64,000 nt of DNA from Teichococcus coralli (GTDB lineage Bacteria; Pseudomonadota; Alphaproteobacteria; Acetobacterales; Acetobacteraceae): NCBI RefSeq assembly GCF_009829925.1, contig NZ_SNVJ01000005.1:1-64000 (forward strand), given 5' to 3'. Numbering within the stretch: position 1 is the stretch's first letter; every line of letters begins with the position of its first letter. Positions 2,308 through 15,580 of the stretch are shown piece after piece. The notes under the pieces were generated by a model, which saw only the letters and a program-made list of their open reading frames with translations, made no database searches and was not told the DNA's origin. Made by a program: the position numbers and the translations under genes.

Positions 2308-3213
2308 ATGCGCATCAGGGTGATCATCAATGCGGGCGGCGGCTCGGTAGGTGGCGAGGACATCAGCCGGCAACTGACCGACGCTTTCGCCCAGCACGGC
2401 GTCGAGGCATCCGTGGCCGAAGTCGAGGGTCCGGCGCTGCGCGATGCCGTCGAGGCCGCGCTCGGAGAGCCGTGGGACGGCGTCGTGGTCGGCGGTGGGG
2501 ATGGCACCATTGGCACCGCTGCCGGGCTGGTGGCGGGCACGGAGCGGCCCTTCGGCGTGCTGCCGCTCGGCACCCGCAACCACTTCGCCAAGGATCTCGG
2601 GCTCCCTCTGGAGGTGAAGGAGGCGGTTGCCGTCATCGCCGGCGGCCACCTGCGCAGCATCGACGTCGCCCGGATCAACGACCGCATCTTCGTCAACAAT
2701 GCCACGGTGGGCCTCTACGCGGACATCGTGCGGGGGCGGGAGTACGAGCAGGAGCGGCACCGGCTGCCCAAGAACCCCGCCACCGTGCTGGCCACGCTGC
2801 GCGCGCTTTGGCGGTTCACCCGGCACCGCCTGGCCGTCCGCGCGGAAGGCTGGGGGGAGCGGTTGCGCACGCCGCTCGTCTTCATCGGCAACAATCTCTA
2901 CAGCACCAGCTTGCCCAACCCGGGCCGCCGCTGTGCGCTGGACAAGGGCGAGTTGTGCCTCTGCATCGCCCGCCACCACAGCCGCCTCGGCATCCTGCGC
3001 ATGTTTGTCCGCGCGCTGAGAGGGCGGCTGCGCGAGGACCGCGACTTCGAGATGCGCTCGGTCACCGCGGTGGAGATCCGTTCCCACCGCCGCAGCCTGA
3101 GCGTGACCCTGGACGGTGAAGTGCTGAAGATGCAGTCCCCCCTGGAATGCCGGAGCTGGCCGGGGGCGCTGCGCGTCTTCGCGCCGCCTCCGCCATCTCC
3201 CACCGGCGGATAG
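2308..3213 (+). CDS. Diacylglycerol/sphingosine kinase-like lipid kinase
   Basis: A 301-residue protein of the DAGK_cat/YegS-like family, which phosphorylates the hydroxyl of a lipid such as diacylglycerol with ATP. The nucleotide-binding loop GGGDGT is at about residues 62-67, and the following LPLGTRNHFAKDLG motif is the standard G-T-x-N-x-F/L-A segment. The C-terminal half is the usual beta-sandwich lipid-binding domain. The length is typical. The gap of 145 nt to the GNAT gene contains no other frame, so this could be the third gene of the same transcript or have its own promoter. Confidence 0.85.
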   Translation: MRIRVIINAGGGSVGGEDISRQLTDAFAQHGVEASVAEVEGPALRDAVEAALGEPWDGVVVGGGDGTIGTAAGLVAGTERPFGVLPLGTRNHFAKDLGLPLEVKEAVAVIAGGHLRSIDVARINDRIFVNNATVGLYADIVRGREYEQERHRLPKNPATVLATLRALWRFTRHRLAVRAEGWGERLRTPLVFIGNNLYSTSLPNPGRRCALDKGELCLCIARHHSRLGILRMFVRALRGRLREDRDFEMRSVTAVEIRSHRRSLSVTLDGEVLKMQSPLECRSWPGALRVFAPPPPSPTGG

Positions 3214-3236
3214 GCTGCCGCGACCCCGCCGCCAGC

Positions 3237-3869
3237 TCAGCCGAAGGTGGAAAGCAGGTCCTCGACCTGGGCGCCCGTCAGCGCGCGCGCGCCGGCGCCC
3301 CGCAGCATCAATGCAAGCCGCGCCGATTCCTCCAGCTCTTCGGCGGCGTAAACGGCGTCCATGAGCGTCTTCCCGGAAACGACGGGACCGTGGTTCGCCA
3401 GCAGCATGGCGCGCGCCGACTTCGCCGCCTCGTGGATCGCCGGCTCCATCGCCGCATCGCCGGGACGGTAGTAGGGGATCACCGGCAGGCTGCGGCCGAC
3501 GCGCATGACGAAATAGGGTGTCAGGGGTGGAATGGGCGCGCTCTCGCCCGGTTCCGCCAGGCAGCCGATGGCGGTTGCATGGGTGGAGTGCAGGTGCACC
3601 ACCGCTCCCGCATCGGGGCGTGCCGTCAGCACGGCGCGGTGCATGAACACTTCCTTGGAAGGCTTGTCGCCACCGACATGGGCCCAGCCGGCGTCCAGCT
3701 TGCTGATGCGCTCCGCCTTCAGCCGGCCGAGGGAGGAGTTGGTCGGCGTCATCAGGTAGCCGTCGGGCAGGCGGACGCTGATGTTGCCGGCGCTGCCGAC
3801 GGAGTAGCCGCGGGCGAAGAGGCTGGCGCCCAGTTCGCAGAGCAGGTCGCGGAGTTCGTTCTCGGTCAT
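3237..3869 (-). CDS. otnC: 3-oxo-tetronate 4-phosphate decarboxylase (class II aldolase family)
   Basis: A 210-residue class II aldolase/adducin-fold protein. The zinc ligands H92 and H94 lie in V-H-L-H-S-T-H and H160 in A-N-H-G-P. E73 in KPSKE corresponds to the catalytic Glu of fuculose-phosphate aldolase. Its start overlaps the stop of the kinase gene upstream by 4 nt (ATGA). In characterised tetronate pathways OtnK phosphorylates 3-oxo-tetronate and OtnC decarboxylates the product to dihydroxyacetone phosphate. The kinase-plus-aldolase pair makes this the best assignment. The dehydrogenase and isomerase steps of those pathways are not seen in this operon. Confidence 0.85.
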   Translation of the reverse strand: MTENELRDLLCELGASLFARGYSVGSAGNISVRLPDGYLMTPTNSSLGRLKAERISKLDAGWAHVGGDKPSKEVFMHRAVLTARPDAGAVVHLHSTHATAIGCLAEPGESAPIPPLTPYFVMRVGRSLPVIPYYRPGDAAMEPAIHEAAKSARAMLLANHGPVVSGKTLMDAVYAAEELEESARLALMLRGAGARALTGAQVEDLLSTFG

Positions 3870-5119
3870 GCGGCGAAGGCCTTGAGGAAGAAGTCGCGGG
3901 CACCGAAGTTGCCGGATTTCAGCGCCAGGTGCAGCCCGCCCGGCTCGGCATAGGTCCAGGGCACGCCGGGGTCGATCTGCGGACCGATGCGCAAGCTGGT
4001 CACGCCGAGCTTCTGCACCACCGCGCCCGAGGTCTCGCCGCCGGCCACCACGAGGCGGCCCACGCCGCGCTCCACCAGCGCCTGCGCGATGCCGGCGATG
4101 GCGTGCTCCACCAGCGTCCCGGCCGCCTCGCGCCCGAGCTTCTGCTGCAGCGCGGCCACCTTATCCGGCGGTGCGGAGGCAGCGATGACCACCGGCCGCT
4201 CCTCGGAGAGCTTGCCCTCCACCCAGCCGAGTGCCTCCTTGACCAGCGCCTGTGCGTCGGGGTTGGCGAGCGCGTCCAGCTCCAGCGTCGGCACGTGGTC
4301 GCGCGCCAGCCCGATCTGCCCGAGCGTGGCGCGGGAGCAGGAGCCGGCCACCACGGCCATGGCGCCGCGCGGCGGCGGCAGGCTGGCGGCGTCGCCGCGC
4401 TCGGGCAGCAGCCCCTTGGCGCGGAAGTTGTCCGGCAGCCCCATGGCGACGCCGGAGCCGCCGGTGATCAGCGCATGCTCGGCGCAGGCTTCCCCCAGCA
4501 TCCGCAGATGCGCGTCGGTCACCGCGTCGGTGATGGCGTAGCGGCGCCCGGCCTCCTTCAGCCTGGTGAACTCGCGGCGGATGGCCGCAGCGCCCTCCTC
4601 GACCACGGGGAAGGGCACCAGCCCGACGCCGCCCTCCGTTTGGCGGGAAAGGACGCGCACGAGGTTGGCGTCCTTCATGGGCGTCAGCGGGTGGTTCTCC
4701 ATGCCGCTCTCGTTGAGCAGCGCCTGGCCGACGAAGAGGTGCCCCATGTAGATGGAGCGGTTGTTGGCCGGGAAGGCCGGGCAGGCGATGGCGAAGCCGG
4801 ATTGCAGCCGCTTGAGCAGCGCGTCGGCCACCGGGCCGATATTGCCCTCATCGGTGCTGTCGAAGGTCGAGCAGTACTTGAAGAAGATCTGCTTCGCGCC
4901 TGCGGCCAGCAGCGCCTCGCAGGCGGCGAGGCTTTCGGCGACCGCGTCGGCCGCCGGCGTGGTGCGCGACTTGAGCGCGACCACGATCGCATCCGCGTCC
5001 GGCATGGGCCCTTGCGGAACGCCGATGACCTGCACCGTGGTCATGCCGTTGGCCACCAGCATGGCGGCGAGATCCGTCGCGCCGGTCGAATCATCCGCGA
5101 TGCAGCCGAGCAGAGGCAT
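3866..5119 (-). CDS. otnK: 3-oxo-tetronate kinase
   Basis: A 417-residue protein of the four-carbon acid sugar kinase family (formerly DUF1537). The N-terminal substrate domain begins G-C-I-A-D-D-S-T-G-A-T-D-L-A. The C-terminal nucleotide-binding domain carries VVAGGETSGAVVQKLG, the family's G-G-E-T-S-G signature. The start at 5119 has GGGAGAGAAG directly upstream; the open frame extends 19 codons further without a better site. It phosphorylates 3-oxo-tetronate at O-4 before decarboxylation by the downstream otnC. Confidence 0.88.
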   Translation of the reverse strand: MPLLGCIADDSTGATDLAAMLVANGMTTVQVIGVPQGPMPDADAIVVALKSRTTPAADAVAESLAACEALLAAGAKQIFFKYCSTFDSTDEGNIGPVADALLKRLQSGFAIACPAFPANNRSIYMGHLFVGQALLNESGMENHPLTPMKDANLVRVLSRQTEGGVGLVPFPVVEEGAAAIRREFTRLKEAGRRYAITDAVTDAHLRMLGEACAEHALITGGSGVAMGLPDNFRAKGLLPERGDAASLPPPRGAMAVVAGSCSRATLGQIGLARDHVPTLELDALANPDAQALVKEALGWVEGKLSEERPVVIAASAPPDKVAALQQKLGREAAGTLVEHAIAGIAQALVERGVGRLVVAGGETSGAVVQKLGVTSLRIGPQIDPGVPWTYAEPGGLHLALKSGNFGARDFFLKAFAA

Positions 5120-5197
5120 GCTTCTCTCCCTGTTCCTATCCTGAAGGCGCAGCCTTTGGCCCCATTCTTCGCCCAACGAACCGAAAGAAGAAGGGGG

Positions 5198-5220
5198 TTC
5201 GGGGAATTCATTCCCCCGAG
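5198..5220 (-). terminator. Possible terminator of the methyltransferase operon
   Basis: An inverted repeat (TCGGGG ... CCCCGA, 9-nt loop) sits just beyond the methyltransferase stop codon and before otnK, which is on the same strand. It has no T tract. It would separate the five-gene operon from otnK-otnC. Confidence 0.4.
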
Positions 5221-5227
5221 CTGCCTC

Positions 5228-6091
5228 TTATCCGGGCAGCGCGAGCAGGTCGGTGTGCCCGATGCGTGCCGCGAGCCGTCCGCGCATCGCCTGCGCCTGG
5301 CGCGCGCCTGCCCAGCCTCGCAGCATCGGCGAGAGGCTGCGCGGGAGGGATGTCATGGCCGCCCGCGCATGACCGTCCGCCAGCGCGTCGGCCATGGCGG
5401 GCGTGTTGGGGCCGACCCACCAGGGGCTGGGCGCGGTCCGCACGGTGAAGCCGCGCGCCCGGAAGGCGCTGGCCATGGCGGCAGGAGCAGCGGGGCCGAG
5501 GGCCGACCCGCCGAAGCCCTTGTCGCGCGTCTGGTCGCGCCGGAACCCGCGGGCGACGAGATGGTCGGCGGGATGGGGCGGAAAGAAGCGTTCGCGCCCG
5601 TTCACGTTCAGCGCGGCGTAGAAGGGCATGTTCAGCCCTCCGGCCATCGCTTCCACCCAGCGCCGCGAGACCAGATCGCAGAGGGCGGAGCTGACCACCG
5701 CATCCGCGCCGTCCAGCGGCAGAGCACGCGGACCGGCGGCGAGATCGGCGACCACCGCCTCCACGCGCCAGACGCCCTGCGGGGTGTGAACGAGCAGGGT
5801 ACGCTTCTTCGGCCAGGTGGTGGTCCAGCCGGCGAGGATGGCGCGCTCTTCGATGGTGGTGACGGCTTCCTCCAGCAGGGCAGCGTCGGCATCCACCAGT
5901 GTCCAGCGCTGGGAACGGGCGAGCAGCGGGGCCAGCCAGCGCAGCAAGGCGCCGGTGCCGGCGCCGAGATCCACGAGATGCGGGCGCGGCGGCAGCGCCT
6001 CCGCCAGCGCCACGGCGAGGCCCAGGCTGCGCGCGCGCGCATCGAAGGGCTCGCGGAGGGCGAGCCAGCCGGCGTCGAAGCCCTCGCTCAT
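5228..6091 (-). CDS. Class I SAM-dependent methyltransferase, last gene of five-gene operon
   Basis: A 287-residue protein with a Rossmann-like SAM-binding fold. Motif I is VDLGAGTGALLRWLAP at about residues 39-54, and the acidic residue that binds the SAM ribose is in W-T-L-V-D-A-D. It starts within the stop codon of the glycosyltransferase gene (ATGA overlap). The acceptor is unknown. As part of the operon it could O-, N- or C-methylate the small molecule handled by the other four enzymes. A large C-terminal part (after about residue 150) has no motif I recognise. Confidence 0.8.
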   Translation of the reverse strand: MSEGFDAGWLALREPFDARARSLGLAVALAEALPPRPHLVDLGAGTGALLRWLAPLLARSQRWTLVDADAALLEEAVTTIEERAILAGWTTTWPKKRTLLVHTPQGVWRVEAVVADLAAGPRALPLDGADAVVSSALCDLVSRRWVEAMAGGLNMPFYAALNVNGRERFFPPHPADHLVARGFRRDQTRDKGFGGSALGPAAPAAMASAFRARGFTVRTAPSPWWVGPNTPAMADALADGHARAAMTSLPRSLSPMLRGWAGARQAQAMRGRLAARIGHTDLLALPG

Positions 6092-7131
6092 GCCTGCGCC
6101 GCGTCCAGCTCGGCGGCGAAGGCCTCGGCGCGGTCGGTCCAGCGCGGCAGCTTCTGGCCGGCGGCCCAGGCGGCCTCGGCCATCGCGGCACGCAGGTCGC
6201 GGTCGTAGATGACGCGCCGCATGGCGCGGGAGAGCGAGCTGGCGTCACCCGGCGCGGCGATGACACCGGCCTCCTTCGGCACGAGGTCGGCGATGGCGCC
6301 ACCGGCGGTGATGGCCAGCGGCAGGCCGCGCGCCAGCGCTTCGGCCGCGGCCATGCCGTAGCCTTCCCAGTGGGTCGCCAGGGCGAAGAGGTCACTGCGG
6401 GCGTAGAGGGCGTCCAGGGCGGGCTGCTCGACCTCGCCGGCGAAGGTGACGCGCTGGGCGATGTTCAGCTCCTCGGCGAGTGCGGCGAGGCTCTTGGCGT
6501 GCACCGGATCGCGTGGGGAGCCGGCGATGGTCAGGCTCCATTCCAGGTCGGTGAGGCGGCCGAGGGCGTGCAGCAACACGTCATGGCCCTTGCGCGGCAC
6601 CAGCACGCCGACAGCCAGGAGGGCACAACCCGGCCCGCCCGAGCCCTGGCTGCGCGGCGCCGGATCGGTGCCGGGCTCGACCACGCCGATGCGCTCCTTC
6701 TCGGCGCCGAACTCCAGCGGAAGCCGGTCCGCGGTGAGACGGGAGGTGGCGACCAGCCGCGCCATGCGCGGGAAGAGCAGGCTCTCGCGCTGCTTCAGCT
6801 CCTCGCGGTCCTCCCCGTCGTAGCCGGGCTCGATGGCGGTGGGGTGGTGGATCAAGCCGACCGCCTGCCGCGCCTCCAGCTCGTCAACGAAGGGGGCGAA
6901 GGCGGGCAGGCCAAGCCCGTCGATGACCAGCCGCGTGTTCTCGGGAACGGCGTCCAGCGCCGCGCGGGCAGAGGCCTGGGCGGCGGCGTCTGGAAGGGGA
7001 TGGCGCCCATCCAGCTCGACCACGTCGATGTCATGGCCGGCGGCGCGGAAGCCCTCGACCAGCCGCCGGTCGTAGCCGTAGCCGCCGGAGATGGTGCTGA
7101 AGGGGCCGGGGACGAGCAGCGCGATCCTCAT
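6088..7131 (-). CDS. GT4-family glycosyltransferase
   Basis: A 347-residue GT-B fold glycosyltransferase. The N-terminus MRIALLVPGPFSTISGGY has the Gly-rich loop of the family. The C-terminal half carries a VLVPRKGHDVLLHAL segment and the E-x7-E donor-site motif in T-H-W-E-G-Y-G-M-A-A-A-E-A. The ATG follows the stop of the PTPS-like gene by one base, so translation is coupled. Secreted polysaccharide genes are absent nearby, so transfer of a sugar to the small molecule made by the neighbouring reductases is a reasonable inference. Confidence 0.82.
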   Translation of the reverse strand: MRIALLVPGPFSTISGGYGYDRRLVEGFRAAGHDIDVVELDGRHPLPDAAAQASARAALDAVPENTRLVIDGLGLPAFAPFVDELEARQAVGLIHHPTAIEPGYDGEDREELKQRESLLFPRMARLVATSRLTADRLPLEFGAEKERIGVVEPGTDPAPRSQGSGGPGCALLAVGVLVPRKGHDVLLHALGRLTDLEWSLTIAGSPRDPVHAKSLAALAEELNIAQRVTFAGEVEQPALDALYARSDLFALATHWEGYGMAAAEALARGLPLAITAGGAIADLVPKEAGVIAAPGDASSLSRAMRRVIYDRDLRAAMAEAAWAAGQKLPRWTDRAEAFAAELDAAQA

Positions 7132-7132
7132 C

Positions 7133-7534
7133 TCAGCCGACTTCCGCGTCATAGGCGGCCCAGGCGAGAGGGCTTTCGCGCAGCAGCACCTTGATGGCCT
7201 CCACCTTGCGGCCGCTTTCGCCGAGCCGGCCGTCTCTTGCCGCGGCGCAGAGCCGGCCATGGATGTGCCGGCAAAGGAATTCGGTGCTGGTGTTCTGCCC
7301 GGCGAATTCCGGCACCGTGTCGAGGTTGCGGTAGTCAATGGCGTCCAGCAGGCGGCGCAGTTCGATGCGGGCGGCAGCGATGTCCACCAGCAGGTTGGCC
7401 TCGTCCAGCGCGGTGGCGCGGAACTCCGCCTCCACCACGAAGGTGGCGCCGTGCACGCGCTGCGCGGGGCCGAAGCCGTCGCCGCGAAAGCTGTGCGCGA
7501 CCATGATGTGGTCGGCGACCGTCAGGCTGAACAT
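7133..7534 (-). CDS. 6-pyruvoyl-tetrahydropterin synthase-like protein, altered active site
   Basis: A 133-residue protein clearly homologous to PTPS/QueD (T-fold, pterin binding). In active family members the metal site uses one His in the first strand and a His-Gly-His pair, with a catalytic Cys four residues before that pair. Here H14 and H28 are kept, but H28 is followed by G29-A30, so the third zinc ligand is missing. The catalytic Cys position is A24. The later Asp-His of the charge relay reads D-Y in I-D-Y-R-N-L. The substrate-anchoring Glu residues near N-T-S-T-E and L-L-R-E-S remain. It may bind a pterin or purine-like compound without classical PTPS/QueD chemistry. I therefore do not call it queD. 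Confidence 0.8.
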   Translation of the reverse strand: MFSLTVADHIMVAHSFRGDGFGPAQRVHGATFVVEAEFRATALDEANLLVDIAAARIELRRLLDAIDYRNLDTVPEFAGQNTSTEFLCRHIHGRLCAAARDGRLGESGRKVEAIKVLLRESPLAWAAYDAEVG

Positions 7535-7570
7535 GGGGCTGCGCGTCTCCGGGGCGGTTTGCGGATCGTG

Positions 7571-8545
7571 TCAGTAGGTGATGACGGGGCAGAGCGGCGC
7601 AACCACGCCCGGCGGCGGATCGAGCAGCGCCGGCATCCGCGCGGACAGCTCGCCGAGGGGAACCGCCGGTCCGAGCAGCGCGTCGAAGACGGGTTCCGAC
7701 AGCAGGGAAAGGGCGAGGGCAAGCCGCTCCGCATGGCTGCGTCGGCCGCGCATGGCGGGCGAGACGGCACCGACCTGGCTGGAGCGCAGCGTCAGCCGCT
7801 TCGCATGGAAGGCCTCGCCCAGCGGCAGCGTCACCGGCTCGTCGCCATACCAGGAGGCTTCGATGATGCGCGCCTCGAAGGCGGCATGGGCGAGCGCGTT
7901 GCGCAGCCCTTCGGGATTGGCCGAGGCGTGGATAACCAGCTCCTGCTCGGCCGGACAGTCCTCCGGCGCGGCGAAGTGGACGCCGAGGGCCTCGGCCTCC
8001 GCGCGGCGGGCTGACTCGGTGTCCAGCACGGTGACGGCGGCGCCGGGGATCCGCGCCGCCAGCCAGGCGGCGAGCAGGCCGACCACGCCGGCGCCGATCA
8101 CCAGCACGCGCTCCCCCGGCAGGGGAGCCGCGTCCCAGATGATGTTCAGCGCGGTTTCCATGTTGGCGCCGAGCACCGCGCGCCGGTCGGGCACGGAATC
8201 GGGCAGCGGGATGCACATGGAAGCCGGGGCGAGGAAGCGGTCCTGGTGCGGGTGCAGGCAGAAGACGCGGCGGCCGGCGAGTTCCGCAGGCCCATCTTCC
8301 ACCACGCCGACGGCGGCGTAGCCGTATTGCACGGGAAACGGGAAATCGCCCTGCTGCAGGGGCGCCTGCATGGCCTGCCACTGGCTCTCGGGCACCTGGC
8401 CGTGAAAGACCAGCCGCTCGGTGCCGCGCGAGACGCCGCTGGCGGTGGCGCGGACCAGCGCCTGATCCGGCGCGCGTGGCGGAAGCCGCCGCGCGCGGAG
8501 TTCGCCGCGGCCCGGGGCGATGGTCCAGAAGCCGTGCGCGATCAC
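7571..8545 (-). CDS. BchC-like zinc-binding alcohol dehydrogenase family protein
   Basis: A 324-residue MDR-superfamily dehydrogenase. The nucleotide-binding domain has G-A-G-V-V-G-L in VLVIGAGVVGLLAA. The N-terminal catalytic domain has S-G-V-S-R-G-T-E-R-L where classical zinc alcohol dehydrogenases have C-G-x-C-G-T-D, so the catalytic Cys is Ser; bacteriochlorophyllide dehydrogenase BchC shows a similar S-G-I-S-T-G-T-E pattern. The start is a GTG that overlaps the stop of the reductase gene by 4 nt (GTGA); no ATG fits. It probably oxidises or reduces an alcohol on the operon's unknown metabolite. Confidence 0.8.
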   Translation of the reverse strand: MIAHGFWTIAPGRGELRARRLPPRAPDQALVRATASGVSRGTERLVFHGQVPESQWQAMQAPLQQGDFPFPVQYGYAAVGVVEDGPAELAGRRVFCLHPHQDRFLAPASMCIPLPDSVPDRRAVLGANMETALNIIWDAAPLPGERVLVIGAGVVGLLAAWLAARIPGAAVTVLDTESARRAEAEALGVHFAAPEDCPAEQELVIHASANPEGLRNALAHAAFEARIIEASWYGDEPVTLPLGEAFHAKRLTLRSSQVGAVSPAMRGRRSHAERLALALSLLSEPVFDALLGPAVPLGELSARMPALLDPPPGVVAPLCPVITY

Positions 8546-9363
8546 GCGCAGACCGCCGGGCGGGCGCGGTGCAGGGCGATGTCGAACAGCACGTCCTGGC
8601 CGAGCTGGTGCACCTGCCATTCGAAGCGCAGCCCGTCGGCGATGCGGGCGGCCTCGGGCAGGGTGAAGGCGGGAATGCCGGAGCCGAGCAGCACCGGTGC
8701 GACGGTGACGTGCAGCCGGTCCAGGCAGCCGCTGGCCAGGAAGCGCGAAACCGTCAATCCGCCGCCCTCGACGAAGAGCCGCTTCAGGCCGCGCGCAGCC
8801 AGCAGCGGCAGCAGCGCGCAGAGATCGAGCCCGCCGATTGCGGCACGCGGCGCTCGCAGCACCTCGGCCGCGCCGTGGCGGCCCGGCCCCTGGGCGTCCT
8901 CGGCGCAGACCAGCAGGGTGGGCGGCCCGCCCGCGGCGAAGACGCCGTGCTCCGTGCCGAGCCGCCGGTCGGTGTCCAGCACCACGCGCACGGGGCTGGG
9001 CCCATGCACCTCGCGGGTGGTCAGGCGGGGGTTGTCGTGCCGCACCGTTCCGGCGCCGATCACAACTGCATCGCAAAGGGCGCGCAGGCGGTGGGTGTGC
9101 AGGATGTCGCCGCGGCCGCCGATCCATTGGCTGGAGCCTGAGGCGGTGGCGATGCGCCCGTCCAGCGTCTGCGCCAGCCGGCCGAGCACCATGCAGCCAT
9201 CCGGCGCGCCGGGCGGGGCCAGGATCGGCGCGAACAGACCACCGAGCGGATGAGCGGCCAGGGCCGCGGCGTCATGCTCATCGCGGAGGCGCAGCAAGGC
9301 ATCCCAGGCGGAATCCTCCCCGGGAAGCTCGGCCTGCCGCGGGTCAGGGGTCGGCGTATCCAT
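8542..9363 (-). CDS. RibD C-terminal domain reductase, first gene of five-gene operon
   Basis: A 273-residue protein whose main part is the dihydrofolate-reductase-like RibD_C fold. It shows a D-G-R-I-A start of the domain, N-P-R-L-T, and the G-G-G motif in LFVEGGGLTVSRFLASG. RibD_C enzymes reduce the ribosyl chain of an aminopyrimidine with NADPH during riboflavin synthesis; stand-alone relatives act in other pterin or flavin pathways. The cytidine-deaminase half of true RibD is absent, replaced by about 50 unrelated residues. It heads a run of five genes joined by overlaps or 1-36-nt gaps. Confidence 0.82.
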   Translation of the reverse strand: MDTPTPDPRQAELPGEDSAWDALLRLRDEHDAAALAAHPLGGLFAPILAPPGAPDGCMVLGRLAQTLDGRIATASGSSQWIGGRGDILHTHRLRALCDAVVIGAGTVRHDNPRLTTREVHGPSPVRVVLDTDRRLGTEHGVFAAGGPPTLLVCAEDAQGPGRHGAAEVLRAPRAAIGGLDLCALLPLLAARGLKRLFVEGGGLTVSRFLASGCLDRLHVTVAPVLLGSGIPAFTLPEAARIADGLRFEWQVHQLGQDVLFDIALHRARPAVCA

Positions 9364-9488
9364 TGCCGTGATCTATGCCGCAGCGCGCGGAATGTTGCCA
9401 GACCCGCCCGCGGGCGGAGCGCCATGCCGTTTCGTGATCGAAACCGGACCCGCAGGCATGCTGAACTGTCGCTGAAGGAGGACGCCGC

Positions 9489-9821
9489 ATGAGGATCGTT
9501 CTGGCCACCTTGGCGTTGGCGGTCATGCTGACCCCGCTCGCCGCCTCCGCGCAGGGCAGCGCCCCGACACCGCAGCAAGACCGGATGAAGGCGTGCAATT
9601 CCGGCGCCGGAACGCAGAAGCTGGAGGGCGACGCGCGCCGGAAGTTCATGAGCGACTGCCTGGCGGGACGGGTTCCCGCGACGGGGCCGGCCCAGGGCGG
9701 CAGCCCGGCCCAGGCCGCGCAGCGCCAGCGCATGACGGGCTGCAACGCCACCGCCGCGCAGCGCAAGCTGAGCGGCACGGCGCGGCAGGACTTCATGAAG
9801 TCCTGCCTCTCGGGAAACTGA
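9489..9821 (+). CDS. Secreted PsiF-repeat protein
   Basis: A 110-residue exported protein. A Sec signal peptide (MRIVLATLALAVMLTPLAASA) is followed by two copies of the PsiF repeat, each with the pattern R-M-x2-C-N ... F-M-x2-C-L, at about residues 30-58 and 78-107. PsiF proteins are periplasmic, small and of unknown function; the E. coli member is induced by phosphate starvation. A clear GAAGGAGG ribosome site precedes the start. It converges on the transporter gene with only 6 nt between the stop codons. Confidence 0.85.
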   Translation: MRIVLATLALAVMLTPLAASAQGSAPTPQQDRMKACNSGAGTQKLEGDARRKFMSDCLAGRVPATGPAQGGSPAQAAQRQRMTGCNATAAQRKLSGTARQDFMKSCLSGN

Positions 9822-9827
9822 GGCGCC

Positions 9828-10385
9828 TCAGGCCGGCAGAATGCCGCGCCGGGCGTCGGCCCGGCGCAGCCAGGCGGTCAGCGGCAGGGCGAGCAGCACC
9901 ATCCAGAGCTTGCCCAGCACCTGCCCGGGAAGGAAGCTGAGGTCGCCAAAGGCGATCAGCAGGAAGAAGATGCTGTCCACCACCAGCCCGGCCAGACCGG
10001 AGGCGAAGACGGCGAGCACCAGGTTGCGCCGCTGCAGCGGGGTATAGACGACGAGGTCCACCGTCTCGCTGATCAGGAAGGCCACGGCGGAGGCCAGCAC
10101 CAGCGATGGCGCCGCCAGCAGGGCCGAGAGCACGGTGCCCGCCAGAATGGCCAGCCAGGCGAAGCCGACGCCCAGGCGGCGCTGCACGAGGTCCCGCAGC
10201 ACCAGGGCGAGGCCGATCATCAGCACGCCGGAGGGCGCCATGACACCGGGCGCCACCGGGATCAGGCAGGGGCCTTCCGCCGTGCAGACCGTGCCGGCAT
10301 TGCCGATGAGCCAGTTCGCCGCGGGAATGGTCAGGCCGAAGGCAATCAGAGCCAGCAGGCCCTCCAGGCGGCGAATTCCGGTCAT
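9828..10385 (-). CDS. VUT-family (YhhQ-like) queuosine-precursor transporter
   Basis: A 185-residue membrane protein with about six hydrophobic segments. The conserved helices contain S-E-T-V-D-L-V-V-Y and a later D-S-I-F-F, which match the S-E-x-x-D and D-x-x-F motifs of the vitamin uptake (VUT/YhhQ) family. Members import preQ0/preQ1 into the cell. Location directly downstream of queC supports a queuosine role. The ATG at 10385 starts the recognisable protein; the frame extends upstream into queC without a ribosome site. Confidence 0.82.
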   Translation of the reverse strand: MTGIRRLEGLLALIAFGLTIPAANWLIGNAGTVCTAEGPCLIPVAPGVMAPSGVLMIGLALVLRDLVQRRLGVGFAWLAILAGTVLSALLAAPSLVLASAVAFLISETVDLVVYTPLQRRNLVLAVFASGLAGLVVDSIFFLLIAFGDLSFLPGQVLGKLWMVLLALPLTAWLRRADARRGILPA

Positions 10386-10399
10386 CTGCGAGTTTTCCC

Positions 10400-11113
10400 T
10401 TATGGGGCGGGTGCATCCGCGCGTAAGCGGCGCGACTGGTACGCCATCCACCCCTTGGCGCGCAACGCGCAGGCCGGACATTCACCGCAGCCATGTCCCC
10501 AGGGATGGCTCGCGCCGCGCTCGCCGAGGTAGCAGGTGTGGGTCCTCTCCACGATGTCCCGCACCAGGGGCGCGCCGCCGAGGCTTTCGGCCATTTCCCA
10601 GGTCTGCGCCTTGTCCAGCCACATCAGCGGCGTGTGCAGGACGAAACGGCTCTCCATCCCGAGGTTCAGCGCCACCTGGAGGGCCTTGATGGTGTCGTCC
10701 CGGCAGTCCGGATAGCCGGAATAGTCGGTTTCGCACATGCCGCCGACGATGTGGCGCAGCCCGCGCCTGTAGGCGAGGGCGGCGGCGAAGGTGAGAAAGA
10801 CGATGTTGCGGCCGGGGACGAAGGTGTTGGGCAGGCCACTGTCCGTCATGGCGATTTCGGTCTCGCGGGTCAGCGCGGTGTCCGAAACGGCACCAAGCGC
10901 CTCCAGGGCGAGCGTGTGGTCGGCGCCGAGGCGATCCTGCCAGCGCTGCGGCAGGGCGGCGCGAAAGTCGGCGCGGCATTCCAGCTCGACGCGGTGCCGC
11001 TGGCCGTAGTCGAAGCCCAGGGTTTCCACCCGCTCGAAACGGTCCAGCGCCCAGGCGAGGCAGGTTGCGGAATCCTGCCCGCCGCTGAACAGAACCAGTG
11101 CGCCTTCGCTCAT
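10400..11113 (-). CDS. queC: 7-cyano-7-deazaguanine (preQ0) synthase
   Basis: A 237-residue N-type ATP pyrophosphatase. The P-loop SGGQDS is at residues 10-15, and the C-terminal zinc-binding cluster C-G-E-C-P-A-C is present. QueC converts 7-carboxy-7-deazaguanine to preQ0 using ammonia and ATP, in the queuosine pathway. The start at 11113 has GAGCGAGGA upstream. It is followed after 14 nt by the transporter gene, so the cell can probably make and also salvage deazaguanine precursors. Confidence 0.93.
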
Positions 11114-11129
11114 TCCTCGCTCTCCTTCG

Positions 11130-11163
11130 GCTGCCGGGCGTGGGGCTTCCCGCCCCGGGCAGC
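11130..11163 (-). promoter_or_regulatory. Hairpin in the queC leader
   Basis: An imperfect inverted repeat (12 of 15 pairs, 4-nt loop) lies 17 nt upstream of queC on its coding strand. It could be a terminator of the small upstream gene or part of a leader structure. I could not fit the known preQ1 riboswitch core motifs to it. Confidence 0.3.
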
Positions 11164-11199
11164 GCAGGTCAAGGGTAGGACGGCGGGGGCGCGCCGGCC

Positions 11200-11541
11200 T
11201 CAGAAGAAGGAGAAGGCCTTCTTGCGCGAGCGCTCCGCCTGCACCACCAGCCGCGCCTGGTCGGCCGCGAAGGCGCGGCGGGCCGCAAGGCCGGGCGCGC
11301 CGATTCCGCGCTGCCGGCACCAGGCGAAGAAGTCGTCCGGCCGCATCGCGATGCGGATGACGCGGTAGCCCTCCTGCTCCGCCTTCTTCAGGTCCTTCTG
11401 CGCGCCGAGGCGCCAGTCGTCGTAGTTCTCGCTCATGTCGGGCATGGCTTCGCGCAGCTTGTCGAAGCTGCCGGAATCGTACCAGGCGAAGCCCATGACA
11501 GGACGGTTGTCCGACTGAAAACCAAGAATTTCAGAGATCAT
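11200..11541 (-). CDS. Conserved-looking hypothetical protein, 113 residues
   Basis: I do not recognise the family. The protein is soluble, with an aromatic-rich first half (F-A-W-Y-D near residue 17, D-D-F-F-A-W-C near residue 70) and a basic Arg/Lys tail. There is no signal peptide or membrane segment. I take the ATG at 11541; two upstream in-frame ATGs are possible. It lies between the queG end (about 120 nt upstream on the same strand) and queC, so it might be carried on a queuosine transcript, but nothing in the sequence ties it to that pathway. Confidence 0.6.
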
Positions 11542-11662
11542 TCCCGATCCGCCCATCATCCGAGAGTTGTCAGGACCGTGCGGAAGGAAGTGCCGCACGT
11601 GGTGTGATGCGGCGCATAATCCGGGACAAAATTTACAAAATCATGAACGGCGTGCGCCCAAA

Positions 11663-12697
11663 TCAGGGCAAGGCCTCGGCCAGCCGCGCGGTTGCCCAGC
11701 CGGCGGCCTCCGCCACCACCGGGGAGGGATCGCCGCGCAACGCCTCGGCCGCCGGGCGCAACCCGGCCTCGCCGGAATTGCCGATGGCGATCAGCACGTT
11801 GCGCACGAACCGGTCCCGCCCGATGCGCTTGATGGGCGAGCCGCTGAACAGGGAGCGGAAGGCGGCGTCGTCCAGCGCCGCCAGCTCCGCCAGGCGTGGC
11901 GCGGTCAGCTCCTCACGCGGAAGCAGGCCCGGCTCCTGCGTGGCATGGGCGAACTTGTTCCAGGGACAGACCGCGAGGCAGTCGTCGCAGCCATAGATGC
12001 GGTTGCCCATGGCGGCGCGGAATTCCTCGGGGATCGGCCCCTTGTGCTCGATGGTCAGGTAGGAGATGCAGCGCCGCGCATCCAGCCGGTAGGGGCCGGT
12101 GAAGGCGTTGGTCGGGCAGGCGGCGAGGCAGCGCGTGCAGCGGCCGCAATGGTCGCTCTCGGCGCCGGAGGGAGCGAGGTCGAGCGTGGTGTAGATCTCG
12201 CCCAGAAAGAGCCAGGAGCCGAACTCCCGCGAGACGAGGTTGCTGTGCTTGCCCTGCCAGCCGATTCCGGCTGCCTGCGCCAGCGGCTTCTCGGACACGG
12301 GAGCGGTGTCCACGAAAACCTTCAACGCGCTGCCGCGCCAGCGGTCCACCATCCAGCGCGCCAGCGCCTTCAGCCGCTTCTTGACGATGTCATGGTAGTC
12401 CTTGTTGCGCGCATAGACGCTGATGGCGGCGCGGTCACGCTGCTGCAGGACCGCGAGCGGGTCCTCCTCCGGCCCGTAGTTCATGCCGAGCGCGATGACG
12501 GAGACGGCCTCGGGCCAGAGCGCCCGCGGATGGGCGCGCTGCCCGGCGCGATCGGCCAGCCAGTCCATCTCCCCCTGCATGCCGGCGGCAAGGAAGGCGT
12601 CCAGCCGCTCCCGCACCTCCGGGCCGAGATGCGCCGGCGCGAAGCCCACCGCATGGAAGCCGAGCGCCAGCGCCTGCGCGCGGATCTCCGCCGCCAT
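11663..12697 (-). CDS. queG: Epoxyqueuosine reductase
   Basis: A 344-residue cobalamin- and iron-sulfur-dependent enzyme that reduces epoxyqueuosine to queuosine in tRNA, the last step of the pathway. The N-terminal DUF1730 domain contains D130 in VFVDTAP, the likely proton donor. Two 4Fe-4S clusters are marked by C184-C187-C190-C194 and C237-C240-C244 with C210. A C-terminal HEAT-like tail follows. The start is chosen at 12697 because GGAGG lies just upstream; a GTG 30 nt further up is possible. It is the last gene of queA-tgt-queF-queG, 61 nt after queF. Confidence 0.92.
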
Positions 12698-12758
12698 GCC
12701 CTCCGGCGTCAGTGCCGGGGAGGGCACCGGGGGCGGCGCCTTGCCGGCGCGGGGCGTC

Positions 12759-13223
12759 TCACCCCCGGCCACGGTAGTTGGGCACGTCCTGGGCCGGCAC
12801 CCAGACGCCCTCCGGCGCGTTGCCGGTCTGCCAGAACACGTCGATGGGCATGCCACCGCGCGGATACCAATAGCCGCCGATGCGCAGCCAGGCCGGGTCC
12901 AGCACTTCGGCGAGCTTGAGGCCAATGCCCACCGTGCAGGCCTCATGGAAGGCGCCGTGGTTGCGGAAGCTGGTGAGGTAGAGCTTCAGGCTCTTGCTTT
13001 CCACCAGCCAGCCGCGCGGGATGTAGTCGAGGACGAGGTGGGCGAAGTCCGGCTGACCGGTGATCGGGCAGAGCGAGGTGAACTCGGGTGCGGTGAAGCG
13101 CACGCAGTACTGCCTGCCGGGATGCGGGTTGGGCACCCGCTCCAGCACGGCCTCCTCGGGGCTCTGCGGCTGCTTCGTGGCCTGGCCGAGCATGGTGAGG
13201 CCGGACACGTCGTGCGTGGTCAT
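12759..13223 (-). CDS. queF: NADPH-dependent 7-cyano-7-deazaguanine reductase
   Basis: A 154-residue T-fold enzyme of the short (YkvM) QueF type. The catalytic Cys is C52 in [13 protein letters not shown], with the partner Asp at 59. The QueF-specific segment V-E-S-K-S-L-K-L-Y follows. It reduces the nitrile of preQ0 to the amine preQ1 with two NADPH. The ATG overlaps the tgt stop codon (ATGA). Confidence 0.93.
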
Positions 13224-14356
13224 GCGGTGGTCTCCTGGGCGCGGACCCAGCCGGCCTCGATGGCGGTGGCCTTCTCGGCGAAGCGGCCCGCGAGGATGGC
13301 GGCGCGGAGGCGCGCCATCAGGGTCTGGTAGTAGCGGATGTTGTGCCAAGTCAGCAGGATCGGCCCGAGCATCTCGGCCGCCTTGAACAGGTGATGCAGA
13401 TAGCCCCTGGAGTGCCTGGTGCAAGCGGGGCAGTCGCAATCCGGGTCGAGCGGGCCGATATCCTCGGCATGGCGGGCGTTGCGCAGGTTCAGCACGCCCT
13501 GACTGGTATAGGCCCGGCCGGTGCGGCCCGAGCGCGTCGGGATGACGCAGTCGAACATGTCCACGCCGCGCGCCACGGCGCCCACCAGGTCGGAGGGCGT
13601 GCCGACGCCCATCAGGTAGCGCGGATGCGTCTCCGGCAGCATGCCCACGCTGAAGTCGAGCACGCGGAACATTTCCTCCTGCCCCTCGCCGACGGCGAGC
13701 CCGCCGATCGCATAGCCCTCGAAGCCGATCCGCTTCAGCGCCTCCGCGCTCTCTCCGCGCAGGTCGGCATAGACGCCGCCCTGCTGGATGCCGAACAGCC
13801 CGTAGCCCGCGCGCGGCGTGAAGGCGGCGCGGGAGCGCGCGGCCCAGTCCATCGAGAGCCGCATGGCGCGCGCGGCCTCGTCATGCGTCGCCGGGTAGGG
13901 GATGCACTCGTCGAAGCACATGCTGATGTCGGCATCCAGCAGGTGCTGGATCTCGATGCTGCGCTCCGGCGTCAGGCGGAACCGCTCGCCGTTGATGTGG
14001 CTCTGGAAGGTGACGCCGTCCTTGTCGAGCTTCCGAAGCTTGGAGAGCGACATCACCTGGAAGCCGCCGGAATCCGTCAGGATCGGTCCCTGCCAGTCCA
14101 TCATGCGGTGCAGCCCGCCGAGCCTGCCGACGCGCTCGGCGCCGGGGCGCAGCATCAGGTGGTAGGTGTTGCCGAGCACGATGCTGGCGCCGGTGGCCCG
14201 CACATTGTCGGCCGTCATGCCCTTCACCGTGCCGGCGGTGCCGACGGGCATGAAGACCGGCGTCGGCACCTCGCCATGCGCGGTGCGCAGGGTGCCGGCG
14301 CGGGCATGGCCGTCGCGGCACTGGCAGGTCCAGGCCAGGGGGCCATGCGTCGTCAT
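13220..14356 (-). CDS. tgt: tRNA-guanine transglycosylase
   Basis: A 378-residue TIM-barrel enzyme that exchanges guanine-34 of GUN-anticodon tRNAs for preQ1. The substrate-binding motif [16 protein letters not shown], the nucleophile region [12 protein letters not shown] and the zinc site C-D-C-P-A-C followed by His are all visible. The bacterial length is typical. Its start and stop both overlap neighbours by 4 nt (queA upstream, queF downstream). Confidence 0.95.
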
Positions 14357-15435
14357 GAACAGTAATCCTCCCGGAACAGCAGGCTGGCATCGCCATAGGA
14401 GTAGAAGCGGTAGCCGGCCGCCACGGCATGGGCATAGGCGTTGCGCATCCGCGCCATGCCGGCGAAGGCCGAGACCAGCATGAACAGGCTCGACTTCGGC
14501 AGGTGGAAGTTGGTCAGCAGCAGGTCCGCCGAGTGGAAGCGGTGGCCGGGTAGTAGGAAGATGTCGGTGAGGCCGCGGAAGGGATGCACCACGCCCCGGC
14601 TGTCCACCGCGCTTTCCAGCAGCCGCAGCGCCGTGGTGCCGATGGCGACGATGCGGCCGCCCTTGGCGCGGGCGTCGTTGATCGCCGCCGCCGCCGCGGG
14701 CGTGATCTCGCCCCATTCGGCGTGCAGCTTGTGGGCGCGGGGGTCCTCGGCGCGGATGGGAAGGAACGTCCCGGCGCCGACATGCAGCGTCAGCGCCACC
14801 TGCCCGACGCCGCGCTCGGCCAGCGCGCCCAGCAGGCGGTCGGTGAAGTGCAGGCTGGCGGTCGGCGCCGCCACCGCGCCGGGCTGGCGCGCGAAGATCG
14901 GCTGGTAGTCCTCGCGATCCTCTGCGCGCGGCCCCTCGGGGCGGGCGATGTAGGGCGGCAGCGGGATCTCGCCGGCCTTTTCCAGCGCGGCGGCGAGCAG
15001 CGCCTGGTCCGGCCCGAAGTCGAGCAGCGCGGCGCCGCCTTCCTGCCGCTCCACCACGCGGGGGGCGAGCTCCGGCGCGCCCTCGATGCTCAGGATGTCG
15101 CCGGGGCGCAGCTTCCTGGCGTTGCGCACCAGGGCGTGCCAAATGCCGCCGGCCTCGGCGCGGTTCAGCATGATCTCCAGCCGCGCCTCGCCGCGCCGGG
15201 CGCGCAGCCGGGCGGGAATGACGCGGGTGTCGTTCACCACCATCAGGTCGCCGGGGCGCAGCCATTGCGGCAGGTCCAGCACGCCGGCATCGCGGATGCC
15301 CTCCGGCGCGGCCACGAGCATGCGCGCCGCATCGCGCGGGCGGGCCGGCGCCTGGGCGATCAGCGCCTCGGGCAGGGCGAAGTCGAAATCATCCGCCCGC
15401 AGGGGGGGCAGGGTGGAGGGGTCTTGCGCGGTCAT
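14353..15435 (-). CDS. queA: S-adenosylmethionine:tRNA ribosyltransferase-isomerase
   Basis: A 360-residue QueA, which moves the ribosyl part of SAM to preQ1 in tRNA to form epoxyqueuosine. Family motifs include [12 protein letters not shown] near residue 70, LHVGAGTF near residue 230 and [20 protein letters not shown] near residue 310. It is the first gene of the queA-tgt-queF-queG operon. The chosen ATG gives the normal length; the frame continues 22 codons upstream without a better signal. The 145 nt to the divergent TPP-enzyme gene must hold both promoters. Confidence 0.94.
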
Positions 15436-15580
15436 TCCGATGGGGCTTTCGCCGCGCGCGGTAGCGGAGGGGAGCCCCGAAGGCAAGCGCGGCCTCGGCA
15501 TTGCGTGCTCGGAAGGGGTTGCCTCCCCACAGGGGCGGGGGCAGGCTCAGGCAAAACAAGCACCGGGGGATCGTCCGACC

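Follow-up and report, generated by a model that had tools for sequence, protein, structure and literature searches.

A conserved five-gene operon of Teichococcus coralli and the possible GTP-derived, methylated and glycosylated product of its pathway

The closest described systems to the operon considered here are the QueD and 6-pyruvoyl-tetrahydropterin synthase (PTPS) enzymes, the riboflavin pathway, the pteridine glycosides, the phosphatidyltransferase PgsA and importers of the THI5/NMT1 type. The operon lies at 5228–9363, on the minus strand, of a stretch of 64,000 nucleotides of Teichococcus coralli (Acetobacteraceae; assembly GCF_009829925.1, contig NZ_SNVJ01000005.1, positions 1 to 64,000), referred to below as the window, and encodes a RibD_C-type reductase, a BchC-like medium-chain dehydrogenase, a PTPS-like protein, a GT4 glycosyltransferase and a predicted class I S-adenosylmethionine (SAM)-dependent methyltransferase. 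We tentatively propose that these genes encode the central biosynthetic enzymes of a single dedicated pathway, as yet uncharacterised, in which a GTP-derived ribityl-pyrimidine or pterin would be methylated, glycosylated and, in some lineages, linked to a lipid.

The PTPS-like family resembles QueD and PTPS in its PF01242 domain and in keeping two zinc ligands (His16 and His31) and Glu110 of QueD, but it lacks the catalytic Cys, the catalytic His and the third zinc His. SCO6650 of Streptomyces coelicolor (structure 3d7j) belongs to the same family along nearly its whole length; the gene cluster was seen in Streptomyces loci other than that of S. coelicolor. RibA (GTP cyclohydrolase II) and the RibD_C reductase of the cluster are clear members of riboflavin-pathway families, but the reductase of the operon differs from RibD in having no deaminase domain; with a RibD_C domain alone, it is a candidate RIB7-like ribosylaminopyrimidine reductase, its activity on a diaminopyrimidine being putative. 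The likeness to pteridine glycosides (limipterin, cyanopterin) lies in the presence of a GT4-type enzyme beside a pterin-family protein and the difference in the methylation, lipid and import genes that the cluster adds; the pteridine glycosyltransferase of C. tepidum acts on tetrahydrobiopterin (PMC5683033), whereas residues needed to reach that compound are missing from the PTPS-like protein. The phosphatidyltransferase found with the cluster in other lineages shares PF01066 with PgsA but scores below the pgsA cut-off and forms a separate group tied to the cluster, and the binding protein of an associated importer shares PF09084 with ThiY and other THI5/NMT1-type proteins but differs in its location in a phosphatidyltransferase–GT4 locus.

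We know of no product for the cluster, and a search of the open-licence literature (most subscription papers lie outside it) turned up no paper on SCO6650 or on the five genes as a set. The S. coelicolor gene SCO6655 presumably lies near SCO6650 and encodes, we assume, an active GTP cyclohydrolase II. SCO6655 is named as GTP cyclohydrolase II in PMC2853524, and SCO6652 appears in PMC3610822 as a hypothetical protein whose expression values are 0.8, 4.3 and 4.1.

Layout and conservation of the gene set

The five genes are tightly packed. The reductase gene (P0001; 8542–9363, 273 amino acids) overlaps by four nucleotides (8542–8545) the dehydrogenase gene (P0002; 7571–8545, 324 amino acids, GTG start), which is separated by 36 nucleotides (7535–7570) from the PTPS-like gene (P0003; 7133–7534, 133 amino acids); a single nucleotide (7132) lies between this and the GT4 gene (P0004; 6088–7131, 347 amino acids), which in turn overlaps the methyltransferase gene (P0005; 5228–6091, 287 amino acids) by four nucleotides (6088–6091). 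A first-pass annotation made from the sequence alone had described this row of minus-strand genes, and its junctions are reproduced exactly by the open reading frames, its RibD_C, PTPS and GT4 families by domain scans and its methyltransferase by a structural model. No sigma-70-like promoter or terminator-like site was found in a consensus scan of positions 3100–9600 of the window.

Relatives of the PTPS-like gene were sought in one genome per species; at least 588 were found, and the best 80 loci were kept and examined up to 10 kb on each side, some being cut by contig ends. Among these best 80, a dehydrogenase gene lies within 600 nucleotides upstream on the same strand in 75 and a GT4 gene within 600 nucleotides downstream in 74. 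The linkage of the five genes is more than chance, and the set recurs in three phyla: Pseudomonadota (Alpha- and Gammaproteobacteria), Actinomycetota and Gemmatimonadota. Streptomyces, rhizobia and marine roseobacters are among its carriers. The first-pass annotation had named rarity of the five genes as neighbours in other genomes as the outcome that would count against it; the neighbourhood search shows them to be neighbours repeatedly.

Fifty of the loci (L017–L066) are nearly all from Acetobacteraceae or Rhodospirillales, three being placed only in Alphaproteobacteria or Proteobacteria. All five core genes are present in 37 of the 50 and in 29 of the 36 whose flanks extend 4.5 kb or more in both directions, and no locus of the 50 carries the extra families found in the distant loci. 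The other 30 (L067–L096) are distant, from Gemmatimonadota, Actinomycetota, Chromatiaceae, Marinobacter and others. Here the dehydrogenase is found in 30, GT4 in 29, a separate methyltransferase in 27 (29 including fused forms) and RibD_C in 10, together with a CDP-alcohol phosphatidyltransferase (27), a flippase-like LPG_synthase_TM protein (25), a creatininase-family protein (22), RibA (18), a PF00884 protein (11), FkbM (6) and cytochrome b561 (1); the tally for the 80 loci gives one label to each open frame and so hides fused proteins, which were counted separately. Five Streptomyces loci (L087, L088, L091, L092 and L094) have the phosphatidyltransferase, dehydrogenase, PTPS-like protein, GT4, methyltransferase, flippase-like protein, creatininase and RibA.

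Plasmids carry the genes as well. Eleven of 20 plasmid records with a PTPS-like match were inspected: those of Thiodictyon, Methylosinus, Rhizobium, Agrobacterium, Microbacterium and S. fungicidicus have the dehydrogenase, PTPS-like, GT4 and methyltransferase genes in a row, those of Palleronia and Rhodobacteraceae SC52 have the row without GT4, and that of Arthrobacter has the dehydrogenase, PTPS-like and GT4 genes only. Copies borne by viruses were not found in one scan.

Co-occurrence and fusions are consistent with joint function. Across 149 genomes of a Rhodobacterales-like family, the PTPS-like, dehydrogenase and methyltransferase genes are found in exactly the same 12, among them G620, where the PTPS-like gene does not share a contig with the other two. 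Eight loci (L082, L093, L117, L119, L121, L122, L124 and L127) have GT4 fused to the methyltransferase; creatininase is joined to RibD_C in one (L093), and phosphatidyltransferase to PF00884 in one (L156). The earlier view that the five proteins work together is thus strongly supported by the clusters in three phyla, the shared 12 genomes and the eight fusions.

In a tree of joined dehydrogenase and PTPS-like sequences (56 rows) each of the three phyla stays together, with one change each, although support for Pseudomonadota is only 86/77 and nine rows fall in no group. Because the tree keeps the three phyla apart, the core and its linkage look old, and recent transfer between phyla was rejected on the same ground.

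The genes flanking the operon were also considered. A PsiF-repeat protein is encoded divergently at 9489–9821 (plus strand), and the upstream region is common to both. Directly downstream, at 3237–5176 (minus strand), lie genes for an OtnK-like kinase (PF07005/PF17042) and a class II aldolase. Neighbouring genes were clustered across 92 loci including that of the window, with a codon-composition filter that may miss real genes; the downstream same-strand OtnK group has members in 31 loci and the aldolase group in 20, all within L017–L066 or the window. A hairpin in the junction between the operon and these two genes folds no better than shuffled sequences (z −0.02). Kinase and aldolase were dropped as operon members, since neither was seen in any locus outside L017–L066 and the window.

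The enzymes of the core

P0003 matches PF01242 with an E-value of 9e-21 and is similar end to end (residues 1–130 of 133; phmmer E-value 2.6e-43) to SCO6650, whose structure 3d7j is titled uncharacterized protein. Its only other match in the Protein Data Bank (PDB) at an E-value of 0.01 is a putative 6-pyruvoyl tetrahydrobiopterin synthase (6e-4), and its QueD score is 38.6 bits against a cut-off of 89.25. When 118 rows of the family were aligned to E. coli QueD (from MG1655), the position of the catalytic Cys27 was Ala in 117 and Ser in one, that of the zinc ligand His33 was Ala in all 118, and that of the catalytic His71 was Tyr in 106, Met in six, Leu in three and Phe in three, and never His. 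His16 and His31 are kept in all 118 rows, as is Glu110, which we take to be the substrate-anchoring residue that binds the 2-amino-4-oxo ring. The alignment of SCO6650 with P0003 likewise shows Ala for Cys27, Ala for His33 and Tyr for His71, and the authors of the SCO6650 structure reportedly found no zinc and no PTPS activity. Because the catalytic Cys, the catalytic His and the third zinc His are lost, the family of P0003 is not QueD and should not perform QueD or PTPS chemistry; it may, however, hold a 2-amino-4-oxo-pyrimidine ring through the kept Glu. Genes of the same family also lie apart from the cluster on Streptomyces plasmids, near cupin and MBL-fold genes (L007, 9001–9399; L015, 12001–12426).

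These residues bear on whether the operon is a branch of queuosine or deazapurine synthesis, an origin that its surroundings in the window would suit: just upstream, at 9828–15501 (minus strand), lie genes for a Vut_1 transporter, QueC, QueG and QueF (by Pfam) and for Tgt and QueA (by reading of the open frames). Against this stand the loss of Cys27, His33 and His71 in 118 of 118 rows and the presence of another PTPS-family gene elsewhere in the genome, on contig C6, where a GTP cyclohydrolase I gene (PF01227, E-value 2e-43) precedes the start of the PTPS match by some 160 bases. Moreover QueG, the only que gene checked, forms a group in just 3 of the 92 clustered loci, including that of the window (a clustering that can miss genes), and by this check the que genes are not conserved neighbours of the operon. 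The queuosine link was rejected on these three grounds and we consider it extremely unlikely; the deazapurine-like product that the first-pass annotation had listed among its options is unlikely because the PTPS-like protein lacks the QueD catalytic residues and a second PTPS-family gene follows GTP cyclohydrolase I, the linkage to que genes being unconserved besides.

P0001 matches PF01872 (E-value 2.6e-38) and has no second Pfam domain at an E-value of 0.01, so that RibD_C is its sole domain and the fused deaminase–reductase architecture of RibD is absent. Its closest solved relative is 6p8c, a 2,5-diamino-6-ribosylamino-4(3H)-pyrimidinone 5'-phosphate reductase (E-value 1.1e-26). As a RibD_C enzyme with no deaminase that is closest to a diaminopyrimidine reductase, P0001 points to a ribityl-diaminopyrimidine intermediate. 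The contig has a second RibD_C gene at another place, within a larger open frame (487 amino acids). Since RibA and RibD_C are families of the riboflavin pathway, a ribityl-aminopyrimidine might instead be taken on to a modified flavin, lumazine or deazaflavin; weakly against this, the clustering gave no further family common to many distant loci (a scan of its groups for riboflavin or lumazine synthase is not included), and we judge such a product very improbable.

The label "BchC-like" for P0002 is a distant likeness: BchC is its best NCBIfam match, at 59.4 bits against a cut-off of 291, and it falls outside that family. The stretch S39-R-G-T-E, which we take to be placed where zinc enzymes have their catalytic Cys, is invariant in the dehydrogenase alignment (A10, 25 rows), and P0002 is apparently without catalytic zinc. 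P0004 matches Glycos_transf_1 (E-value 2e-30). P0005 falls below the Pfam cut-off (Methyltransf_25, E-value 4e-5), but its AlphaFold model, with a mean pLDDT of 96.7, matches 3mgg with a Z-score of 19.2 and a root-mean-square deviation of 3.4 over 238 aligned residues, and the predicted fold identifies it as a class I SAM methyltransferase. No close characterised relative was found for the dehydrogenase or the methyltransferase.

The membrane module and the importer

The genome of the window has no match to the phosphatidyltransferase of the cluster at 1e-10, and its operon locus shows no other family of the membrane module described next. In the Rhodobacterales-like family the genes fall into a synthetic module (RibA, RibD_C, dehydrogenase, PTPS-like protein and methyltransferase) and a membrane module (cytochrome b561, phosphatidyltransferase, PF00884 protein, flippase-like protein and GT4), which in one genome (G487) lie on separate contigs. 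The phosphatidyltransferase of the cluster is a PF01066 protein for which pgsA is the nearest NCBIfam in two of three members scanned, which score 37.6 and 47.1 bits where the cut-off is 109; its D-G, A-R and D residues, presumably the motif residues of the CDP-alcohol phosphatidyltransferase family, are invariant in 10 rows. PgsA takes glycerol 3-phosphate as its acceptor, and by analogy the PgsA-like enzyme could accept a polyol phosphate of the head group.

Among 398 genomes of Pseudomonadota, 27 have the PTPS-like gene, 18 the phosphatidyltransferase and 14 both (hypergeometric p 2e-15), and the two genes lie within a few kb of each other in 12 of the 14. This bears on another account of the operon, that its product is a soluble, secreted pteridine glycoside of the limipterin or cyanopterin kind, serving as a light screen, signal or antioxidant, with the membrane genes belonging to a separate lipid. 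Pteridine glycosyltransferases do exist, that of Chlorobium tepidum being placed by its authors in a GT-1 and AviGT-4-like family (PMC5683033), and the phosphatidyltransferase is lacking in Acetobacteraceae and in about half of the other core-bearing proteobacteria. A separate lipid, however, sits poorly with a co-occurrence so far above chance and so often within a few kb, and with a GT4 that, in the Rhodobacterales-like family, accompanies the membrane module; nor would ordinary tetrahydrobiopterin be expected from a PTPS-like protein whose QueD/PTPS catalytic residues are gone. We regard a secreted pteridine glycoside as rather unlikely.

Cytochrome b561 may be found with or without the phosphatidyltransferase. 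The latter is lacking in 13 of the 27 PTPS-bearing genomes of Pseudomonadota, and in the 12 of their loci other than that of the window, all alphaproteobacterial, RibA lies beside the core in six and cytochrome b561 in seven (L106, L107, L108, L109, L112, L115 and L129). The recurrence of this cytochrome next to the core genes of many Alphaproteobacteria is at most a hint of redox chemistry.

Some genomes have the membrane module and no synthetic one. Of 20 genomes with the phosphatidyltransferase among the 149 of the Rhodobacterales-like family, 15 lack the PTPS-like gene, and 11 of these have a close copy of the binding protein of a THI5-like ABC transporter. Importer and phosphatidyltransferase share a locus in 10 of the 11 (in G628 they are on different contigs, both at contig ends); beside the importer GT4 is found in 10 of the 11, and the methyltransferase and dehydrogenase in none. 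Binding-protein matches were found in 16 of the 149 genomes, with close copies (E-value 1e-172 or better) in 14, those of G565 and G655 (1e-68 to 1e-69) being set aside as paralogues. At the thresholds applied, 13 of the 14 importer genomes have neither dehydrogenase nor methyltransferase. The exception, G602, has both modules and a broken importer (L152, 9545–11846): a stop interrupts the gene for the binding protein, and the permease match falls into two parts. No importer lies at the loci of the other four genomes that combine the two modules (G613, G641, G643 and G655). An intact importer is thus present in 11 of the 15 genomes with the phosphatidyltransferase alone and in none of the five with both genes (Fisher p 0.008, counting as lacking G683, the 15th of the former, whose contig of 3.5 kb is too short to judge).

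The same arrangement is seen elsewhere. Three genomes of the 398 set that have the phosphatidyltransferase without the PTPS-like gene (G356, G386 and G425) have the importer with GT4, and no importer was found in the PTPS-bearing loci among L097–L129 and L137–L167. Six of the 29 plasmids with a phosphatidyltransferase match were inspected; those of D. shibae, Rhodobacter, Paracoccus, Alloyangia and Tateyamaria carry the THI5-like importer and that of Qingshengfaniella a carbohydrate-type one. Some bacteria thus seem to import the head group in place of synthesis. Because GT4 adjoins the importer and the methyltransferase and dehydrogenase do not, the arrangement suggests that glycosylation follows import, and the imported molecule would then be a methylated, unglycosylated head group.

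The binding protein is a PF09084 protein (two scanned, E-values 7e-40 and 2e-36) with no NCBIfam match at 1e-10. It has three PDB matches, 4nmy (the best), the pyrimidine-binding ThiY (3ix1, E-value 7e-9) and THI13, and two of the three (3ix1 and 4esx) are pyrimidine-related. A carbohydrate-type ABC importer takes the place of the THI5-like one, with no GT4, in three further genomes with the phosphatidyltransferase, G560 and G604 (SBP_bac_1 and a MalK-type ATPase, by Pfam) and G631 (by plasmid annotation); the loci that show the membrane module with such an importer and no GT4 are L148, L149 and L150. Our guess is that it would fit import of an already glycosylated head group. The substitution in three phosphatidyltransferase loci could also mean that the pathway makes a sugar- or polyol-lipid, for which the RibD_C, PTPS-like and dehydrogenase folds were recruited to a substrate that does not derive from GTP, and the lack of close characterised relatives of the dehydrogenase and methyltransferase would allow this. 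Such a lipid is hard to square with GTP cyclohydrolase II in 18 of the 30 distant and 6 of the 12 alphaproteobacterial loci, with the creatininase–RibD_C fusion and with the pyrimidine-related matches of the binding protein, and we think it improbable.

The proposed pathway and its significance

In the pathway that we tentatively favour, GTP cyclohydrolase II, which is in the cluster in many other lineages and is presumably a housekeeping enzyme in T. coralli, would yield 2,5-diamino-6-ribosylamino-4(3H)-pyrimidinone 5'-phosphate from GTP, and the deaminase-less RibD_C enzyme would turn the ribosyl chain to ribityl. The apparently zinc-less dehydrogenase and the PTPS-fold protein may then remodel the intermediate to a head group resembling a pyrimidine or a pterin. 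The PTPS fold would hold the 2-amino-4-oxo ring by its kept Glu, with no QueD or PTPS chemistry; the methyltransferase would methylate this head group and GT4 add a sugar. In other lineages the PgsA-like CDP-alcohol phosphatidyltransferase would link the head group to a lipid through a polyol phosphate, the flippase-like and PF00884 proteins would handle the lipid product at the membrane, often with cytochrome b561 nearby, and some bacteria would bypass synthesis by importing the unglycosylated head group through the THI5-like transporter. The chemistry of each step, the sequence in which the steps occur, the attachment to a lipid and the use of the product are all read from the protein families. 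In T. coralli, with the core only, the product is probably glycosylated, methylated and GTP-derived. The glycosylated, methylated pterin- or pyrimidine-like compound suggested earlier is therefore retained as far as the families, the kept Glu, RibA and the THI5-like importer fit it, its chemistry staying putative.

A number of observations weigh against this reading or parts of it. The PTPS-like gene is found in 67 of 150 genomes of the window's family and the phosphatidyltransferase in one, weakly (E-value 2e-11), and the phosphatidyltransferase of the cluster group has no match at 1e-10 in the genome of the window; because it is near-absent in Acetobacteraceae, lipid attachment may not apply in T. 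coralli. It is also absent from 13 of the 27 PTPS-bearing Pseudomonadota genomes and from 7 of the 12 in the Rhodobacterales-like family. Within the core, the methyltransferase is the gene most often missing (undetected in 7 of the 36 loci of L017–L066 with flanks of at least 4.5 kb), RibD_C was undetected in 20 of the 30 distant loci, RibA was found in none of the 50 loci L017–L066, and two Streptomyces plasmids have a PTPS-like gene with no other cluster family beside it. The one creatininase-family protein scanned differs from the riboflavin-type archaeal deformylase ArfB in scoring higher with MftE (141 bits) than with ArfB (37 bits), and the folds of the core could act on another ring. 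For the importer, the contrast comes from one family and small numbers, and the Fisher p becomes 0.11 if the broken importer of G602 is counted as present (G683 again as lacking); G655, whose weaker binding-protein match was excluded, has both modules, G553 and G661 have the importer and no phosphatidyltransferase match, GT4 was undetected at the importer locus of G588, and 4nmy, the PDB entry that the binding protein matches best, gives no ligand name.

Beyond the first-pass annotation, the analysis adds the membrane module, the importer standing in for synthesis and a solved structure of the family, 3d7j. Annotations name several members of the cluster as 6-carboxytetrahydropterin synthase (adding a remark on queuosine), RibD or alcohol dehydrogenase, and are probably misleading. 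A bolder extension, which we hold to be rather unlikely, is that the cluster makes a membrane cofactor of a new class. Its head group would be a ribityl-pyrimidine or pterin that derives from GTP, bears methyl and sugar groups and is carried on a phospholipid; it would perhaps be a redox carrier for the linked cytochrome b561, made by some bacteria and taken up by others as a vitamin through the dedicated importer. The cluster is conserved in three phyla, yet no product for it was found in the papers searched. If its head group can indeed be scavenged, it would add a previously undescribed exchange of a vitamin-like compound among bacteria and, perhaps, a novel redox cofactor of membranes.

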